Origin: Bryobacterales bacterium
GTDB lineage: Bacteria; Acidobacteriota; Terriglobia; Bryobacterales; Bryobacteraceae
Assembly: GCA_020846745.1 (NCBI GenBank)
Contig: JADLDI010000059.1
Coordinates: 1 to 64,000 of the forward strand
Length of the DNA stretch: 64,000 nt
Reading direction: 5' to 3'
Notes under the pieces: model-generated
Seen by the model: the letters and a program-made list of their open reading frames with translations, nothing else
What the model was told of the DNA's origin: nothing
Database searches by the model: none
Program-made: the position numbers and the translations under genes
Part shown: piece by piece, positions 1,498 to 57,842 of the stretch
Numbering within the stretch: the first letter of the stretch is position 1
Layout of the letters: each line of letters starts with the position of its first letter

Positions 1498-2916
1498 ATG
1501 GTGACCCTCACTCCCACTCCATCAATCCGCATGCTACTGGCCCTCGGGGTTGCCGCAAGGACACGACTTTTGAGAGTCTTCCCCGCAGATTCAGTACGCG
1601 GCCGTTTGGCTTCTGGCACCTTCTGGTCTTTGCTTGCCGCACTTACGACGCAGTTGTCCGCTATCGGCAGTTCAGTGGTAGCTGGACGCGTTCTGGGACA
1701 AGCTGGGTTCGGTCAGCTCGGCATAATCAACAGTACGATTGGAATGTTGGGAGCGTTTACGGGGTTCGCTCTCGGAATGACCGCCACGAAGTACGTAGCT
1801 GAATTCCGAGTAAAGGACCCGGTCGGGGCGGGGCATATTATCGCTCTTTCATCGATTGTTGCACTCCTAGCCAGTGGGTTCATCTCGCTCCTGCTCATCC
1901 TCTTTGCTCCCGTACTTGCTTCCCATATTCTGGCGGCTCCTCATCTCGTTCCCGAACTGCGCGTTGCCGCACTGCTCCTACTCTTCAACGCCGTCAATGG
2001 GGTGCAAATAGGAATCCTCTCCGGCTTGGAAGCCTTCCAGGGCATCGCCCGGGCCAACATTCTCCGTAGCCTTTTGTCTCTCCCCGTGGTCGTGGGCGGG
2101 TTGCTGCTCGGCCGCTTGCTAGGCGTGGTGTGGGGACTCGTGCTCGCCGCAGCGATCGGCTGCTTGATAACCCAGTACATTGTCAGCGATGAATGCCGTC
2201 GTGCAGCGATACCAATCCGCTATGCAGCAGCAAACTCTCAGCTTCGTGTCCTCTGGCATTTTTCGCTACCAGCCTTCCTGAGCGGCACCTTCGTTGGGCC
2301 TGTCACTTGGGTTGCCCACGCGATGCTAGTAAATCGCCCTAACGGCTACGCAGAAATGGGCGTCTTTAATGCCGCTAACCAATGGCGCACTGCTGTCCTG
2401 TTTCTTCCAGGTCTCGTCGGTCAAGTATCCGTACCGCTGCTCTCCGCAATGCAGGCAAAAGGTGAAACGCATCGAGGTCGTAAGATACTCGCCGGCTCGA
2501 CATTGACTAGTGCTTGCTGCGCCATCCCGTTGGTCCTGATCCTGCTCCCTTGTGGTAGCTGGATAATGTCATTCTATGGAGAGGGCTTCTCTAAATCGAC
2601 CGCCGTCTTTCAAGTCTCGCTCCTTTCTGCTGCCCTGCTTGCAATCCAAACTCCGATCGGGAACGTTATCACTGCGTACGGAAGAATGTGGCTGGGCCTC
2701 CTCATGAATATGGGCTGGGCCGCCTGTTTCCTCGTCACCGCGCACATACTCCTTGCGCTCGGCTGGGGAGCCAACGCCCTCGCCTCAGCATACCTGACAG
2801 CGTATGCTCTGCATGCTATGTGGACGTTCTGGTTCGCTGCGTCTCTTCTCAGACAGGGGGACAATAACTCTGGGTCCTCCACCGCACCCTCCGACATCGA
2901 TGAGCAACCCTTTTGA
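1498..2916 (+). CDS. Wzx-like polysaccharide flippase (MATE/MVF superfamily)
   Basis: A polytopic membrane protein of about 472 residues with roughly twelve hydrophobic segments. It has the opening typical of oligosaccharide flippases: a basic stretch, then FWSLLAALTTQLSAIGSS and VVAGRVLGQAGFGQLG. Such proteins flip undecaprenyl-linked oligosaccharide units across the inner membrane for Wzy-type polymerisation. The frame is open back to a TTG at 1405, but the extra 31 residues are polar and unlike the family, so the ATG at 1498 is preferred; 1531 is also possible. The stop overlaps the next start (2900). With the polymerase at 7340 and the glycosyltransferases nearby it makes a Wzx/Wzy pathway likely. 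Confidence 0.85.
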   Translation: MVTLTPTPSIRMLLALGVAARTRLLRVFPADSVRGRLASGTFWSLLAALTTQLSAIGSSVVAGRVLGQAGFGQLGIINSTIGMLGAFTGFALGMTATKYVAEFRVKDPVGAGHIIALSSIVALLASGFISLLLILFAPVLASHILAAPHLVPELRVAALLLLFNAVNGVQIGILSGLEAFQGIARANILRSLLSLPVVVGGLLLGRLLGVVWGLVLAAAIGCLITQYIVSDECRRAAIPIRYAAANSQLRVLWHFSLPAFLSGTFVGPVTWVAHAMLVNRPNGYAEMGVFNAANQWRTAVLFLPGLVGQVSVPLLSAMQAKGETHRGRKILAGSTLTSACCAIPLVLILLPCGSWIMSFYGEGFSKSTAVFQVSLLSAALLAIQTPIGNVITAYGRMWLGLLMNMGWAACFLVTAHILLALGWGANALASAYLTAYALHAMWTFWFAASLLRQGDNNSGSSTAPSDIDEQPF

Positions 2917-3808
2917 ACGCTCCGGCCTCGCGTCAATCGACGACCTATCGACTGCCACGTGGAAATCTCTATTCAGTCATCTCGAATCTATCCAGAAAGA
3001 GTTCCTCGCGGTTCAGCCTCACACTCCAGGTTATCCGTGGCCTCGAGACCCGTTACACAACTTCATAAGGGTATGGGAATATCCTTTTGTCTACAATCAC
3101 CTAAAAGCTCAATTTGCCAAGGCAGTTGCCGGTATTCCGCCGAAGGTAGTTGATCTTGGCTCCGGTGCCACGTTTTTTCCGTTCGCGGTTGCCCGCCTCG
3201 GCTGGGACGTAATCACCGTCGATGCGGATCGCCGGGCCACTTCTTCGATGGACCGCGCCATTGTCGAATTGTCGACAGCACCCGGCTCTGTTCGTACTCT
3301 GGAGTCTGATGCTCGCGCAATCGATCTTGAAAGCGAATCCGTTGACTGCGTCTACTGCATCAGCGTCCTGGAACATATACCGGATTTCGAAAGCGTCGTC
3401 GCTGAAGCTCACAGGATTCTGCGACCATCGGGCCTGTTCCTACTCACCTTTGACATAGACCTCAACGGCAATTTCGAACTCGGTCCAGATGCATTCTCAC
3501 GGCTTCGAGGGGTTCTAGATTACAGATTCTCTCCAGTTTACCCCGAGCGAGTCACGCATCCACTGCGGATCCTAACCTCAGAAAACAGTCTGTATCCAGC
3601 CTATCAGCGCATGTCTCTATCCCGAAGGCTAACGCGATCGCTCAAACGGCGAATCCGTGTCCTGTGCAACTCCCTTGGACTCGCTGAGCCTCCCTCGGGT
3701 AGACTCCTGTTATCTACGTTCGGCGGTTCCCTTCAAAAGCGAGCCCTTCTCACGCAGACTGCATCGTCATCTCAACAAGAACCTACTCGCGTCGATTCTC
3801 AATTGTGA
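2900..3808 (+). CDS. Class I SAM-dependent methyltransferase
   Basis: A protein of about 302 residues. The SAM-binding motif is VVDLGSGATFFPFAVA, followed by the acidic VITVDAD strand end, then DCVYCISVLEHIPD and the LRPSGLFLLTFD segment, all standard for Methyltransf_11-type enzymes. The ATG at 2900 overlaps the last 17 bases of the flippase gene and begins MSNPFERSG. The frame is open to 2804, but that extension lies inside the flippase. It probably modifies a sugar or a lipid-linked intermediate. The substrate cannot be told from sequence. The last 50 residues are basic and serine-rich. Confidence 0.8.
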   Translation: MSNPFERSGLASIDDLSTATWKSLFSHLESIQKEFLAVQPHTPGYPWPRDPLHNFIRVWEYPFVYNHLKAQFAKAVAGIPPKVVDLGSGATFFPFAVARLGWDVITVDADRRATSSMDRAIVELSTAPGSVRTLESDARAIDLESESVDCVYCISVLEHIPDFESVVAEAHRILRPSGLFLLTFDIDLNGNFELGPDAFSRLRGVLDYRFSPVYPERVTHPLRILTSENSLYPAYQRMSLSRRLTRSLKRRIRVLCNSLGLAEPPSGRLLLSTFGGSLQKRALLTQTASSSQQEPTRVDSQL

Positions 3809-4043
3809 GCTGTTCGTTTGTCATCATCTCGATCCAAGTGGGCGTACGAACTCCAGTCGCTATCATTCCATTACATGCCTCCCGGATCAAATCCTTTGAT
3901 AGGGATTATTTGGGATCCAAATCTGAGCCGATCATACCCTGCCAAGCACGTCCGCCCACCCACGGAACCATCGGGGCGGCGTTGCATGTTACACGCCTCA
4001 CCTCAGGGGCGTTAAGGGCGGCGATTGACCTAAGGGCCAAGCA
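3809..4043. other. Intergenic region, nothing recognised
   Basis: This is 235 bases between a methyltransferase and a glycosyltransferase. Short open frames are present in all forward frames, but none has a convincing ribosome site or composition. No hairpin with a T-run is evident. It may carry a promoter for the gene at 4044, but no clear -35/-10 pair was found. Confidence 0.4.
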
Positions 4044-5102
4044 ATGAAAGAACCAAGCCCGTCAGTGTCACTCTTGACCCAGTGGTACATTCCAACTCAA
4101 CGCCCTCACCACATGGTAGAGGTCGCAGCGGCCTGCGATGTGAGAACACATATTCACTCAATCCGACCCGCATCATGGGTTCTAACACGCCAAATGACGC
4201 GGAAAGATGTTTTCCTTCACGCGAACACCGCGCTTCCACGTCGGTTCGAACGCCTCCCAGGAGTGAGACGCTACAATTGCTCAGTCGAGCGCCTAACTAC
4301 ACGTCAATTTCTCGCGGACTGCTCATTCATCAAAATCGTGCAAGTCTTGCCCCGATTCTTTCGGCGTCCGCCAGAAGGATACCTTATTTACGACTGCGTT
4401 GACGACCATGCTGCCTTCCCAGGAGCCGCACGCGAAGAGATCCTTGAGCAAGAACGCAACATCTGCCTTTCCGCTGACGAGATCTGGGCCAGTAGTAAGG
4501 CCCTTGTGGGTCGCCTCGGCTCATATACTTTGAAACCGGTGCTTTACGTTCCAAACGGCGTGAACCCTGCGCTATTTAGGATGCGTGCTTCATTCACGGG
4601 TAAACCAATTCTTGGCTATGTAGGAGCCATTGCGCCGTGGTTCGATGCACGCCTCACAAGGACTGTCGCGGATACACTCCCAAACTGGCAGATTCATCTG
4701 TATGGGCCAACGAGCTTGACTGTCGAGCAGCAGCGCCTTCTAAAGAGGCCGAATATCCACTTCCACGGTGAGATCCCGTACTACCGTGTGCCGGACACTA
4801 TCGCAACCTTCGACGTTGGGATGATTCCATTCTGCATCAATCCGTTGACCATGGCTACAAATCCGATAAAGGTATATGAATACCTCGCCGCGGGTGTTCC
4901 TGTCGTCGCAACGCCTCTCCCCGAATTGAGTTCATACGTAAGCCCGGGGGTGCTTGAGCTCGCAAAAGAGCCACGCGCTTTCGCTGATGCATGTATCAAG
5001 CTTCGCGATGAGAATGACCCGCAAAGTTGTCGTGCCCTCGCCGAAGCCAATAGCTGGGCTGCCCGATTTGAACCGCTATTTACTCGATTGTTATCAATCT
5101 AA
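4044..5102 (+). CDS. Glycosyltransferase, GT4-like (GT-B fold)
   Basis: A 352-residue protein. The C-terminal half shows the donor-binding pattern of family 4 enzymes: PVLYVPNGVNPALF, then PILGYVGAIAPWFD, then NPIKVYEYLAAGVPVVATPL near the end. The segment DCVDDHAAFPGAA in the N-terminal half recalls TuaH-like glycosyltransferases of wall-polymer clusters. It probably adds one sugar to a lipid-linked oligosaccharide on the cytoplasmic face of the inner membrane. The ATG at 4044 follows a 235-base gap, so this gene may begin its own transcript. Donor and acceptor are unknown. Confidence 0.83.
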   Translation: MKEPSPSVSLLTQWYIPTQRPHHMVEVAAACDVRTHIHSIRPASWVLTRQMTRKDVFLHANTALPRRFERLPGVRRYNCSVERLTTRQFLADCSFIKIVQVLPRFFRRPPEGYLIYDCVDDHAAFPGAAREEILEQERNICLSADEIWASSKALVGRLGSYTLKPVLYVPNGVNPALFRMRASFTGKPILGYVGAIAPWFDARLTRTVADTLPNWQIHLYGPTSLTVEQQRLLKRPNIHFHGEIPYYRVPDTIATFDVGMIPFCINPLTMATNPIKVYEYLAAGVPVVATPLPELSSYVSPGVLELAKEPRAFADACIKLRDENDPQSCRALAEANSWAARFEPLFTRLLSI

Positions 5103-5163
5103 ACATGCCAAGACGATTCACAATCCTCCACCTTCACTGCGTCTCATTCGCTCCTGAAGGTCT

Positions 5164-5934
5164 GTGGAAAATATCCCAACTCACGGCTGCATGTGTTTTA
5201 TGACACATAATGTTTTTGAAACCGAGGCGGACTCATTCACCAGCACATGTGACAAGGCCAGCAGATTGGGGATCAACAAACGCCCTGAACTGTTTACGGA
5301 TCTCACAAAGAGGTATCTCGCGCACGGCTCGCGAGTCCTCGACTACGGTTGCGGTCCAGGACGCATCGCGCATCGACTGGCCAGCGAAGGTTTCCGCGTA
5401 ACAGGGGTAGATCCCTCGCCTGCAATGATTGCCCATGCAATCGCACAACGGCGCGACGGCTTGGACCTGACTTTTCTGGTATTGGAGACTACGGGTTCCT
5501 CACGGGACAAGTTAGTAGCAACTCAGCGCAACAGCCACTTGACGACGGACGAATTGATTGTGCAAATGAAATGTCAGGCATTCGATGGAATCGTGTGCTC
5601 AAGCGTTATAGAGTACGCTCGAGATACTGGCGCCTTTCTGCTCACCATTCGGTCGCTTCTGCGCCCGAATGGAGTACTGATAATTAGTTTCGCCAACAAA
5701 TTCAGCGTCTGGCGCGCATATGTGCACATCACTGGTAAAGGCACATTCACCTCAATGCAGCCGCAGACGTGGTCCAGGCGGCAGTTCCGCAGACACCTCG
5801 TTCAATCCGGCTTCACAATAATCGACGAACCACTATACTTCGAGTCCGCTTGTGACAAATATCGTCCAACTCGTTGGATGTCGCGCCTGTCGAGCGTTGG
5901 TCTCCTTGGAGTATATGTCGCACGGAGAGATTGA
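5164..5934 (+). CDS. Class I SAM-dependent methyltransferase
   Basis: Up to 256 residues. Motif I is VLDYGCGPGRIAHRLA, followed by RVTGVDPSPAMI, and FDGIVCSSVIEYARD marks the post-I region. It resembles the methyltransferase at 13804 (VLDYGCGPG against LLDYGCGTG, FDGIVCSSVIEY against FDGVVLSSVLEY), so the two are probably paralogues. The frame opens with GTG at 5164; ATG codons at 5191 and 5200 are equally plausible starts. The stop codon is one base before the next start (5936), which suggests co-translation. It presumably methylates a sugar or sugar-nucleotide of this cluster. Confidence 0.82.
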   Translation: MENIPTHGCMCFMTHNVFETEADSFTSTCDKASRLGINKRPELFTDLTKRYLAHGSRVLDYGCGPGRIAHRLASEGFRVTGVDPSPAMIAHAIAQRRDGLDLTFLVLETTGSSRDKLVATQRNSHLTTDELIVQMKCQAFDGIVCSSVIEYARDTGAFLLTIRSLLRPNGVLIISFANKFSVWRAYVHITGKGTFTSMQPQTWSRRQFRRHLVQSGFTIIDEPLYFESACDKYRPTRWMSRLSSVGLLGVYVARRD

Positions 5935-5935
5935 A

Positions 5936-7255
5936 ATGGTTCAGAACCTAAAATCGTCTCGATCCGGCTGCCACGATCAGGACAAAAAGACCGTGGTTGT
6001 GTCCATATCTCCTCATGCGCTAATCAGCATGGAGAACGTGTCGGGAGTAGGAATGCCATCCGTATTGGCAATCCATCGGGAGCTTGCGCGGCGTGGATAC
6101 ATTGTTAAGTACTTTCAGGTTGGTCAGGGTACTACGCTCGTTGCACCATGTCATGGTGTTGAAACTATCGGGATTGAGGTTCCAGGACTGCCGCAGTCGG
6201 GGCTGCTCTGGAGAAGCGTTGGTAAAGCTTTAAATCTTATTACGTATGCGTTATTAGGGTTCTTTCGTACATACAGAATACTCAAGCGTCATCTTGATGG
6301 CGTTGATCGCGCAATAATATACGGCCACACCGCGTATGGAGCCGTGCTGGCGAGCCTTTTAGCCCGCGCCGTGCGTCGGCCGAACATAACCCGTCTGTAT
6401 GGAACTCTTGCCCCCTACCACCTCGGAATGAGCCCTCACTATCCGAAGAGTCATCTGGAGAAACTGATAGGATTATGTTATGCCTGGGAGGATCTCGCGG
6501 CTATCGTTGCTCCCGCTTCGCGTTACATCATCACTAACGACGGTACATTGGGCGAGCGCCTATTTCGCGCAGTGAGACCCACGGCACAAACTCTGGTGTT
6601 TCCCCGCAACGGAATTGATATCGACTGGCACGCATGGCTATCTACGGAACGAACCGCGACAGTCTGGAAGACGACTTTTGCTATGGATGCCCCGACGATT
6701 GTGACAGCTGGGCGCTTGATGAAGTGGAAGCGGTTTGACCGTGTGGTCGATGTTGCTTCGCAACTCAGGAATCGAGGTGTTCACGTCAACGTAGCAATCT
6801 TAGGAAGCGGCCCGGAGGACTCCGATTTGGTCCGGAGGATCGATGACGCCCGGCTGGCCGACAGAGTGAAGATTATCAGACATACTCCACATTCGGAAAT
6901 GCCTCGTTTCCTGTATGCTGCTGACGTAATCCTGCTCTTGCAGGACTATACGAATCTTTCAAACACGCTCCTTGAAGCTCTGAGTTTGGAACGACCGGTA
7001 GTGGCTCTGGATGTTGGCGGGACGGGTACGGTGATCAGGCATAAGTGGAACGGATACCTTGTGAGCTTAGATAATTGTGTGCCAGCTGCTGCCGAAGCTT
7101 TAGCCCACATTTTAAGTAGCGAGGAAGAACAACGGAGTCTCTCTCGCGGTGCCAGAGAGTGGCGCGAGTTACATGGCTATTCATGGGAGAAACGCGCCGA
7201 GGTTGATATAAATGAGATTCGCCACATTCTCAAAAGCGAAAAGCCCCACAGGTGA
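5936..7255 (+). CDS. Family 4 glycosyltransferase
   Basis: A protein of about 439 residues with a GT-B layout. The N-terminal domain has GMPSVLAIHRELARRGY and the C-terminal domain has TIVTAGRLMKWKRFDRVVDV, VAILGSGPED, and the donor-site segment SNTLLEALSLERPVVALDVGG. The frame is open to 5852 inside the preceding gene. The ATG at 5936 is chosen because GGAGAG lies six bases upstream and the previous stop ends at 5934. It is predicted to be a retaining glycosyltransferase acting at the cytoplasmic membrane. The specific linkage is unknown. Confidence 0.88.
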   Translation: MVQNLKSSRSGCHDQDKKTVVVSISPHALISMENVSGVGMPSVLAIHRELARRGYIVKYFQVGQGTTLVAPCHGVETIGIEVPGLPQSGLLWRSVGKALNLITYALLGFFRTYRILKRHLDGVDRAIIYGHTAYGAVLASLLARAVRRPNITRLYGTLAPYHLGMSPHYPKSHLEKLIGLCYAWEDLAAIVAPASRYIITNDGTLGERLFRAVRPTAQTLVFPRNGIDIDWHAWLSTERTATVWKTTFAMDAPTIVTAGRLMKWKRFDRVVDVASQLRNRGVHVNVAILGSGPEDSDLVRRIDDARLADRVKIIRHTPHSEMPRFLYAADVILLLQDYTNLSNTLLEALSLERPVVALDVGGTGTVIRHKWNGYLVSLDNCVPAAAEALAHILSSEEEQRSLSRGAREWRELHGYSWEKRAEVDINEIRHILKSEKPHR

Positions 7256-54675: not shown

Positions 54676-54780
54676 GGCAACCCTCCAGGCATAACAATAA
54701 CACGAATTCAGATTGTTCTATCGGAAATTACGACTGAGAAACGCCACTCTCCCCGCGAAAGATACTGTTCCCCCAAGCTG

Positions 54781-54809
54781 CGTTTAGTGAAATCAGATCA
54801 CCGTTTAGT
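54781..54809 (-). promoter_or_regulatory. Direct repeat of ACTAAACG, 21 bases apart, upstream of the Fis-type gene
   Basis: Read on the minus strand, ACTAAACG occurs at 54802-54809 and 54781-54788, two helical turns apart on the same face. It lies in the 149-base interval between the ATP-grasp-like gene and the Fis-type gene. It could be an operator for a dimeric regulator, possibly the Fis-type protein itself. Confidence 0.3.
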
Positions 54810-54824
54810 CAAACAGAACAGACG

Positions 54825-55736
54825 TCAACTAACCCCCGCCAAGTACTTGACAAGAGAGTGCGCAATCCGCCCGCCCAACCGTCCCCTGCAGTAACTTAGC
54901 GCCGGATGTGCGTCCACTCCAACGCAGTAGTAGCACCCACTATCCGTCAACCTGAGGTTCACCCTGGCCCATTTCAATTCGAGCGCCTGTACCAGCCTCA
55001 GACAGCCCTCCTCAACCTCCGCCGGCAGGCACGGCGGCTTATCCGAATCCCCATCGGTCCCACGCTCTCCGCAACCACTGAGGGTCCCGGCTATCACGCA
55101 TCGTTCGCCCAACGTAGTGACAGCCAGGCTTAGCCCTTCAATGCGCTTCTGCAGCAACACTGCGCCCCGCCCGAGTTGCGAACGCATCCAGTCAATGCCG
55201 GCAGGCAAGTTCAACTCCACCTCCATCGAGACGCCGTCCGCTGTCACCATTACCTGCCCGTGCTTCCGTATAAACCGGAGAGCTTCCACCCCATCGTTTG
55301 TAAGTAACGAGTCCGGCACTCGAAAGAAACGGCGGATCACCTGCGGCTGAACCAACGCCGCTAACTCACCGGCCGAAGGTTCCCCGGGTTTCACTACCCG
55401 CGCGGGCGAGCTATCGATCCACGCGCTTAGTTGATGGTGAAACCTCGAAAGCCGCCGCTTATCTGAGCAACCGCATTCCGCGAACCCCGGCAAGATAGCA
55501 GCGTCGACAAGCCTGGAAAATACCCCAGTTACGCTCGAAAGTTGATAACTCTCGTTATAATATGTCAACCTTCCCTCCACGCCCTGCGGTGTGTCGGCGA
55601 AGTCGATCGTCGCGTTCCCAAATTCCCGCTGATCGAGGAAAACGTGTCGAACCGACAAATCGCGGGCAGCTTCCACGGTCGCTTCAACCGACGGGTCGGA
55701 CGCGACGCCACAAATCAGGACGAGTGGTTGCTTCAC
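54825..55736 (-). CDS. Degenerate ATP-grasp (MvdD/RimK-like) protein
   Basis: About 303 residues. The N-terminal pre-ATP-grasp domain has LVLICGVASDPSVEATVEAA, then LDQREFGNATIDF and SSVTGVFSRLVDA. The middle VIRRFFRVPDSLLTNDGVEA matches the VPxTLxTND motif of MvdC/MvdD-type ligases. The C-terminal domain has VLLQKRIEG-like and NLRLTDSGCYYCVGVDAHPA segments, where the usual metal-binding ExN reads GVDAHP. The conserved Lys after TND is also not seen. It may have lost ligase activity or act with its partner gene. GTG 55736 overlaps the partner's stop. Confidence 0.6.
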   Translation of the reverse strand: MKQPLVLICGVASDPSVEATVEAARDLSVRHVFLDQREFGNATIDFADTPQGVEGRLTYYNESYQLSSVTGVFSRLVDAAILPGFAECGCSDKRRLSRFHHQLSAWIDSSPARVVKPGEPSAGELAALVQPQVIRRFFRVPDSLLTNDGVEALRFIRKHGQVMVTADGVSMEVELNLPAGIDWMRSQLGRGAVLLQKRIEGLSLAVTTLGERCVIAGTLSGCGERGTDGDSDKPPCLPAEVEEGCLRLVQALELKWARVNLRLTDSGCYYCVGVDAHPALSYCRGRLGGRIAHSLVKYLAGVS

Positions 55737-56458
55737 GGTGCGCCTCCGCCGCCCGAGCCCGCCGAGCGCTTCGCAACCTGTTGAAAAATCAACGCGAGGG
55801 AATTCAGAAACGGAGCGCCGCCCGCCCTCAGGTCGGGACACAAACAAATCCCGCTAAACACCACGCCGCTCGTATTCTTCTCGAACTCCACCCCCATCAG
55901 CGGCGTTCCCGCCAGCGCCGCCAGCCTTATGCAAGCCGGCTCAAATTGCTCGGGCACGCTCTTTGAGAAGAACCGGTCGAAAAGGACGAGCCCTGAACAA
56001 CTCGGCGCGGCGCTACTTGCCCTTGCCGCCACCGGCAAGCCCGCCCGCCTGGCTAACTCCGCCCATTGCTGCTTCGTCCGCCGCCCCGGCTGATGCTCTC
56101 CAAAGTGCGGTCCTGGCAGTACGGGAACCTCAAGGCAAGATAGACAACTGAACACAACAGACTGTAACTTCTCCGAAGCCGTGAAATGTCCATCCTCGCG
56201 GGCGCCCCACCAACTCCCGTCAACCGCGCACTCCAATCGGTTCAGTACCCCGCGTATCGCCGCGCTGTGCAGTCTCCGCCCATCCGCCATCCTGATCGAG
56301 AACGACGCTTCGGTCGAACTCAAATGGTGCGCAATCCGTGCGCCTCTCAGTAACTCCTCCGGGTATAAGTAGTGAATTGGACCCATTCCCCGCCGTGACA
56401 ACCCACGATATACCCATTCGGCGGAACGGTCGCGTTCCGCGGCTAATATCAGCCACAT
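55733..56458 (-). CDS. ATP-grasp-like partner protein of unknown function
   Basis: About 241 residues. The start MWLILAAERDRSAEWVYRGL and AAIRGVLNRLECA resemble the N-terminal domain of the downstream protein (SVTGVFSRLVDA). The last 60 residues (LAALAGTPLMGVEFEKNTSG, then CLCPDLRAGGAPF) resemble its C-terminal part. The middle ATP-binding lobe is very short, so it cannot be a complete ATP-grasp enzyme. ATG 56497 and the frame to 56677 are possible starts, but upstream sequence contains a dispersed repeat. The stop overlaps the downstream GTG as GTGA, so they are coupled. Confidence 0.5.
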   Translation of the reverse strand: MWLILAAERDRSAEWVYRGLSRRGMGPIHYLYPEELLRGARIAHHLSSTEASFSIRMADGRRLHSAAIRGVLNRLECAVDGSWWGAREDGHFTASEKLQSVVFSCLSCLEVPVLPGPHFGEHQPGRRTKQQWAELARRAGLPVAARASSAAPSCSGLVLFDRFFSKSVPEQFEPACIRLAALAGTPLMGVEFEKNTSGVVFSGICLCPDLRAGGAPFLNSLALIFQQVAKRSAGSGGGGAP

Positions 56459-56710
56459 GACAGCGCCGGCCCCACTCCGCCTTGTCCCCTGAGACATCCA
56501 TATGTTCTCACCATCACCACTTGTGTTGTGCCGCCCGCCGGCCGCCCGTTTCAGTCTTGAGCCGCGATTTCCGCTCCGGCAAACCATTCCAAACACGGCG
56601 CCTGTGACTCCCGAATCCAAAACACTCGCGCGAACCCCGGCCCGAGCCGCCGCTTTGCTAAGCGTGGGTGCCCGCAACTCGCCTCAGGGACCCCTTCCAA
56701 GGCGGACCCA
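56459..56710. other. Intergenic region with a partial copy of a dispersed repeat
   Basis: The interval before the ATP-grasp-like pair holds CCGGCAAACCATTCCAAACACG at about 56576-56597. This is a near match of a segment of the 70-bp units at 62538 and 62616 (CCGGTAAACCATTGCAAACACG). No convincing small gene or peptide precursor was found on the minus strand here, although the frame of the pair's first gene stays open to 56677. Confidence 0.45.
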
Positions 56711-56749
56711 GTAAAACCGCTAGGGGCGCCTCGGACGGAAGCACCCCTA
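56711..56749 (-). terminator. Terminator of the isomerase gene
   Basis: On the minus strand TAGGGGTGC at 56749-56741 pairs with GCGCCCCTA at 56729-56721, with one mismatch, and GCGGTTTTAC follows. It lies about 45 bases after the isomerase stop and separates that gene from the ATP-grasp-like pair. Confidence 0.55.
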
Positions 56750-56792
56750 CTTCAAACGTGCGGAATGATCGAGCCGAATCGCTCAGCGTTCC

Positions 56793-57842
56793 CTACGACA
56801 ATCCGATAATGCGCCGGTTCCGTGCCGTATCCGAGGCTGCGCCCGCAAAGTCGTCAAACGCCTTTTTCGGCACATCGATCAGGTGCGACGCGATGAACGG
56901 CGCGCCTTCCGCGGCCCCCTGCGCGGCATCCTTGTAGCAGCACTCCCATTCGAGCACCGCCCATGACGAATAGCCCACCGCCGTCAATCGCGTGAACACC
57001 TGTTTGAAATCCACCTGCCCATCACCCAGCGACCGGAACCGCCCCGGACGCTGCTTCCAATCCAGATAGCCGCCGTACACACCAGCCCTCGCCGACGGCC
57101 GGAACTCCGCGTCTTTCACATGGAATGCCTTGATGCGCGACCCATACACATCGATAAAACCCACATAGTCCAGGCACTGCAGAATGAAGTGCGACGGGTC
57201 GTAGTTGATGTTCACGCGCGCATGGTTTCCGGTCGCTTCCAGGAAGCGCTCGAAGGTGGCGCCGTCATAAAGGTCTTCACCCGGGTGCAACTCATAGGCG
57301 AAATCCACCCCATACTTATCCGCCATGTCCAGAATCGGCTTCCAGCGCGCAGCCAGTTCCTTGAAACCTTCTTCCACCAGTCCTGGGGGGCGCTGCGGCC
57401 ACGGATAGATGGTCGGCCACAAAAGGGCCCCCGAAAATGAGGGCGTAACCGGCAGGCCCAGGTTGGCGGAAGCCTTGATCACCAGCTTCAACTGCTCGAT
57501 GGCCCATTCGGACCGCACCTTCGGGTTGCCCCTCACTTCAGGCGCCGCGAAGACATCGAACAGTTCATCGAATGCCGGGTGCGACGCCACCAACTGGCCC
57601 TGTAAGTGCGAGGCCAGTTCTGTTATCGTCAACCCGTTAGTCTGGCCCTTCAGCTCATCGCAGTACGTCTTCGACTCGGCAGCTTTACGCAGATCCATGA
57701 TGCGGCTGTCCCAAGAGGGCAGTTGGACGCCGATGTAGCCGAGCGACTTAGCCCAGGCGGTTATGTTCGGCAGGGAATTGAACGGGGCTTCGTCGCCCAT
57801 GAACTGGGCGAGGAAGATTGCAGGTCCTTTGATCTGAGACAT
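56793..57842 (-). CDS. Sugar phosphate isomerase/epimerase (xylose isomerase-like TIM barrel)
   Basis: About 349 residues. The barrel starts AIFLAQFMGDEAPFNSLPNI and has WAKSLGYIGVQLPSW, then YGVDFAYELHPGEDLYDGAT with the metal-ligand Glu, then VNINYDPSHFILQCLDYV, FHVKDAEF and WAVLEWECCYKDA. These match AP_endonuc_2-type sugar isomerases that use Mn or Mg. The start MSQIKGPAIF at 57842 is preferred; the frame to 57995 is Pro/Arg-rich. TAACAT lies eight bases upstream. A terminator follows. The substrate is unknown. Confidence 0.85.
   Translation of the reverse strand: MSQIKGPAIFLAQFMGDEAPFNSLPNITAWAKSLGYIGVQLPSWDSRIMDLRKAAESKTYCDELKGQTNGLTITELASHLQGQLVASHPAFDELFDVFAAPEVRGNPKVRSEWAIEQLKLVIKASANLGLPVTPSFSGALLWPTIYPWPQRPPGLVEEGFKELAARWKPILDMADKYGVDFAYELHPGEDLYDGATFERFLEATGNHARVNINYDPSHFILQCLDYVGFIDVYGSRIKAFHVKDAEFRPSARAGVYGGYLDWKQRPGRFRSLGDGQVDFKQVFTRLTAVGYSSWAVLEWECCYKDAAQGAAEGAPFIASHLIDVPKKAFDDFAGAASDTARNRRIIGLS

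Follow-up and report, generated by a model that had tools for sequence, protein, structure and literature searches.

What can a pair of genes do when both resemble peptide ligases, the catalytic residues seem to be missing and no peptide is in sight? The question is raised by two genes near one end of the window, by which we mean the whole stretch of 64,000 nucleotides analysed here. P0002 comes first and P0001 follows, both on the minus strand, and their start/stop overlap, GTGA, lies at the coordinates given in the original prediction, which saw in them a coupled pair of degenerate ATP-grasp-like genes. The features are as follows.

55733 to 56458, minus strand: P0002, the partner subunit, 241 aa (ATG at 56458, stop at 55733), a truncated pseudo-ATP-grasp
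54825 to 55736, minus strand: P0001, an ATP-grasp homologue with its catalytic residues lost, 303 aa (GTG at 55736, stop at 54825)
55733 to 55736, minus strand: the GTGA start/stop overlap, read from the sequence
55353 to 55361, minus strand: AAL, residues 126-128, replacing the conserved S-K-P (family alignments)
55293 to 55319, minus strand: VPDSLLTND, residues 140-148, corresponding to the PETLxTND motif (family alignment)
55236 to 55250, minus strand: MVTAD, residues 163-167, replacing VIYKSIS, with loss of the Lys (family alignments)
54903 to 54920, minus strand: GVDAHP, residues 273-278, replacing EVNPSP, with loss of ExN (family alignments)
54721 to 56798, no strand assigned: the segment bearing the pair, missing from a genome of the same genus, G001 (blastn to L187)

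Neither protein has a significant match in Pfam and P0002 has none in NCBIfam, while P0001 matches an NCBIfam subfamily of ATP-grasp peptide maturases (TIGR04187) with an E-value of 1.3e-7, under the family cutoff. As homologous pairs are also found in many phyla, the resemblance to ATP-grasp proteins is not a matter of chance. AlphaFold (AF2) models of P0001 (pLDDT 86.9) and P0002 (pLDDT 89.4) were made with family alignments, an input that favours the family fold and thus supplies much of the models' confidence. Compared to known structures with Foldseek, the P0001 model displays the graspetide-synthetase fold, with CdnC (7mgv, E 3.6e-20) as its top PDB match, MdnC, PruB and PsnB also among the best, and RimK and LysX/ArgX as weaker matches. 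The P0002 model matches PruB, PsnB and MdnB with E-values of about 1e-10. An unrelated fold is thereby ruled out for either protein, and the MvdC/MvdD-type fold that had been recognized by eye in the downstream protein is borne out.

The active site tells a different story. The VPDSLLTND motif that had been claimed is located at residues 140-148 of P0001, and MVTAD aligns on VIYKSIS, so that the Lys expected after the motif has been lost (K165T). The ExN metal site (EVNPSP) reads GVDAHP, again as first noticed, and alignment of the catalytic positions adds a loss that had escaped notice, that of the second conserved Lys, in SKP (K127A). The DYRYA loop is missing, together with a conserved Arg and a conserved His (R205, H207). 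By contrast, the SKP Lys, the VIYKS Lys and ExN are kept in all informative relatives aligned with P0001, hence the loss of catalysis concerns only the downstream protein of this locus. Among the near-invariant columns of the family alignment (those at least 90% conserved), 37 of 65 are changed in P0001, whereas none of 42 relatives has more than 8 changed (mean 1.8), and its branch length is 4.23 against a median of 0.33, with an unsure position in the tree. With these residues gone, P0001 would be incapable of normal ATP-grasp chemistry.

P0002 associates a pre-ATP-grasp domain with a C-terminal part, without the central lobe. It had been described as resembling the two ends of the downstream protein, and this is what profile comparison finds: hhalign aligns the partner with the ATP-grasp profile at 98.4% probability (E 6e-15) over 236 columns, almost the entire partner, with a central gap. 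Since the partners of the relatives are also devoid of the lobe, this truncation is not the outcome of local decay; the missing lobe is a fixed family feature and the partner a standing subunit. The original prediction of lost catalysis in the pair therefore holds for P0001, while the lobe missing from P0002 is family-wide and witnesses no local loss. P0002 has nevertheless diverged too, with changes in 5 of 10 near-invariant columns where relatives have at most 1.

How general is the pairing? Searches of the phylum and of the order yielded few homologues, of which three were informative: two are tandem pairs with 4-nt overlaps (L003/L011 and L004/L012) and the third is a fusion of partner and ligase into one 510-aa protein (L002/L010). 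When genome contigs were scanned with P0001 alone no relatives came up, probably because P0001 has diverged too much, and an alignment of seven ligases was used in the scan that produced the 80 loci considered below. These come from Acidobacteriota, Pseudomonadota, Actinomycetota, Cyanobacteriota, Bacteroidota, Chloroflexota, Myxococcota, Planctomycetota, Verrucomicrobiota, Gemmatimonadota, archaea and others. Several are near-duplicates, L039 and L044 apparently repeat L033 and L035, and intact enzymes are over-represented because the search pattern spanned the ExN region. The partner sits directly 5' of the ligase in all 80 loci, with a 4-nt start/stop overlap in 56, so that the pairing, whose absence among homologues would have spoken against the first reading, is conserved. 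It is plausible that ligase and partner form a heterodimer, as initially proposed, and the natural fusion supports this view.

Some other arrangements are worth recording. In Spirosoma luteum (L068, 6001-6963) the ATP-grasp frame is broken into two parts (6001-6600 and 6616-6963). L036 (5619-7690) and L037 (6586-8636) have full-length ATP-grasps in tandem, which belong to a different graspetide-like group and come without truncated partner. An MvdD-like ATP-grasp that stands alone and has kept its ExN (L005, 1459-3418, also L013) lies beside a 325-aa ORF largely made of (Q/S)(F/Y)DPK repeats, possibly a long repeat precursor, and another ATP-grasp gene (L007, 1447-3665) adjoins a SPASM-type radical SAM protein in an arrangement that is grasp-with-spasm-like by eye. 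Directly after the pair of L011 (7237-9183) comes a 648-aa protein with an N-terminus that we take to be like that of B12-binding radical SAM peptide maturases.

What might the intact pairs act upon? A survey of gene neighbourhoods had been suggested in the hope of finding a conserved small ORF or a transporter. Neither is conserved in the loci, nor is any export gene or any fourth gene, but the survey uncovered a larger protein, encoded directly upstream of the pair, that carries the pattern [FY][IV]x4RP near its C-terminal end in 79 of the 80 loci. The consensus of this tail is FIxxxxRP[D/S/N/A][L/V], where R and P, fixed by the search pattern, are invariant by construction; within the pattern F is found in 78 of 79 and I in 77, followed by D in 61 and by L, V or I in 78. 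The same pattern is rare in the other ORFs of these loci (2 of 672, 0.3%) and in shuffled C-terminal ends (0.2%). Typically the tail comes after a short stretch predicted to be coiled (RLAxLE) and a linker where Lys, Asp and Glu abound, making up 35% of its residues against 15% elsewhere in the tail proteins, with Lys-[Asp/Glu] neighbours 2.8 times as frequent as in shuffled linkers; a few members (L085, L060, L115) have linkers poor in Lys and Glu. What precedes the linker is highly diverse. Some tail proteins are hardly more than linker and tail; among the rest there are subtilase, M6, M64, M43 or trypsin-like domains, or Ig, Kelch or lectin-like parts, so that many are proteases of several families while many others comprise no recognizable protease. 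With a simple hydrophobicity test, only 3 of 74 have an N-terminus resembling a signal peptide, and these three look mis-started. Two tandem tail genes precede a single pair in L195 (second tail-bearing protein at 4664-6064), while L067 has no tail and L032 a divergent one. This tail is likely to be the substrate that had been missing, or a docking element; it could also serve for targeting or binding without being a substrate.

Further observations concern individual tail proteins. L046 codes for two of them (the second at 1637-3616), and L062 has a second one on the opposite strand (3509-4072). The 103-aa protein that comes before the pair in L032 (5401-5712) ends with AFTRQAPQAGL, which is tail-like without FIxxxxRP. 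An archaeal tail protein displays Ig-like domains (L079, 2634-5273), and one of 53 scanned tail proteins matches the contractile injection system family CIS13 (NCBIfam). An anti-phage system was considered and discarded, PADLOC matching nothing but one tail protein, with a generic model for subtilases.

At the window itself no tail protein was found, and the upstream FIxxxxRP feature is absent. In the whole draft genome a profile search for the tail protein had a best E-value of 1.4, and DNA patterns of the tail gave either no match or fewer matches than the reversed-pattern control; the gene was possibly missed, as this genome is a draft in 157 contigs, with 98% completeness. No short ORF for a precursor was seen beside the pair, in line with the original prediction, and a likely explanation is that the candidate substrate of the relatives is the upstream tail protein, the gene of which is absent here. 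Neither of the two flanking genes codes for a peptidase, and scans for promoters and terminators gave nothing beyond chance level. In G001, of the same genus, these flanking genes follow each other at a distance of 114 bp, without anything in between, and the pair is thus a variable insert that was either gained here or lost in G001.

Is the pair, then, a functionless pseudogene remnant, left behind after the tail gene was lost? The tail gene detected neither beside the pair nor in the genome, the conserved columns lost in P0001 and the patchy presence of the pair within the genus would all fit. However, both frames are open, whereas simulated neutral drift, limited to substitutions and started from the gene of one relative, produced stop codons in all 60 runs made at every level of 70% identity or less, so that long neutral decay is unlikely. 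Moreover, the GC content at codon positions is about that of the neighbouring genes, and both structure models are confident, even if the alignments account for much of this. A mere remnant is, on balance, unlikely, though it deserves to be kept in mind. Retention of the overall fold might conversely suggest that the pair is still catalytic via altered residues, but both Lys, R205, H207, the DYRYA loop and the ExN residues have all been lost together, and we consider this highly improbable. What we have is a rare, fully inactivated member of the family that has kept its pairing, and it has the appearance of a relic maintained as a pseudoenzyme: with ligase chemistry lost, yet frames open far past what neutral decay predicts, a pseudoenzyme pair is the likeliest state.

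For the family at large, the tail might instead serve in sorting or export, as a signal that the pair recognizes; the ligase would then attach to it something like an amino acid or surface group, with no crosslink made in the linker. The motif is near the C-terminal end, as sorting tags are, and many tail proteins are similar to proteases, lectins or Ig proteins that are secreted, and yet have no signal peptide. Against this stand the lack of a conserved transporter or fourth gene and the fact that the nearest folds are those of side-chain macrocyclases, which leaves the idea doubtful. A further possibility, put forward for branches 7 and 8 of the ATP-grasp systems classified by Makarova et al. 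(2022), is that the upstream proteases cut other proteins, with the ATP-grasp enzyme modifying the resulting peptides. Several protease families are indeed common upstream; however, many upstream proteins are not recognizable proteases, some being mostly linker and tail, and the same tail is present in 79 of 80, so that this explanation appears improbable.

The reading that we prefer, with a probability of about two in three, is that of a dead member of a two-subunit ATP-grasp family, the intact members of which carry out ligation by docking on the tail, the window pair being kept for non-catalytic binding. In this family, a truncated pseudo-ATP-grasp partner would work with an ATP-grasp ligase of graspetide-synthetase fold, and the window pair would have diverged from such a module. 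Directly 5' of the intact module lies the gene of a larger protein, which usually ends with linker and tail and is often a protease devoid of signal peptide. The heterodimer would dock on the tail and drive, with ATP, the joining of side chains within the linker or close to it, the amines of Lys being most likely linked to the carboxylates of Glu or Asp. The window pair may then have been reused as a non-catalytic binding pair. Of what was first proposed, binding or regulatory reuse after lost catalysis remains our best guess for this copy. In its most explicit form, the proposal is that of a widespread bacterial and archaeal system where a ligase/pseudo-ligase heterodimer recognizes full-size cytosolic proteins by their C-terminal FIxxxxRP tag and crosslinks the Lys-Glu/Asp-rich stalk that they carry; the pair in the window would derive from this system and be reused without substrate. 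This we hold as tentative, with the odds somewhat against it.

How does this compare with known systems? The tandem of two microviridin-type ligases, MvdC and MvdD, that had been envisaged must be rejected, the upstream protein being the truncated partner found family-wide; P0001 scores 10.4 and 12.3 bits with the corresponding equivalogs TIGR04185 and TIGR04184 (cutoffs 425 and 475), and intact relatives 75-101 bits. RimK and LysX/ArgX, which share the ATP-grasp fold and work on the C-termini of proteins or on carrier proteins, have no truncated partner and are less similar than graspetide synthetases. Closest by description is branch 8 of Makarova et al. (2022; PMC8939145), where an ATP-grasp is associated with a truncated inactive one, with two N-terminal domains, and where peptidases of unrelated families lie nearby, no precursor being predicted; those authors suggested that the peptidases cut other proteins, thus supplying peptides. 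A truncated inactive ATP-grasp beside a full-length one is what we see in the window and in all 80 loci, and peptidases are common upstream in the relatives, though none flanks the window pair. Branch 8 was described without the C-terminal tail shared by the neighbouring proteins themselves, and the window copy departs from it further in that its full-length subunit is also inactive and its tail gene absent. The rosaritide synthetase MirB/MirC also needs a co-encoded partner protein, PPIase-like rather than a truncated ATP-grasp (Carter et al., 2026; PMC13097080), and group 32 of the same study, with its diverse neighbouring proteases, may overlap the tail-linked family. Among the main texts of mostly open-access papers we found none pairing the tail letters with ATP-grasp, and on this ground the tail as likely substrate is probably new, as far as can be checked. 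Present in 79 of 80 upstream proteins, it offers a concrete, testable substrate for loci described in 2022 without one. The graspetide synthetases MdnB/MdnC (MvdC/MvdD), CdnC, PsnB and PruB have the same fold and pre-ATP-grasp domain, retain the catalytic residues that the window copy has lost, and act on short precursor peptides, where the relatives described here have a larger, tailed protein instead; if our reading is correct, graspetide-type chemistry would not be confined to short peptides but would also take place on full-size proteins, at their stalks.
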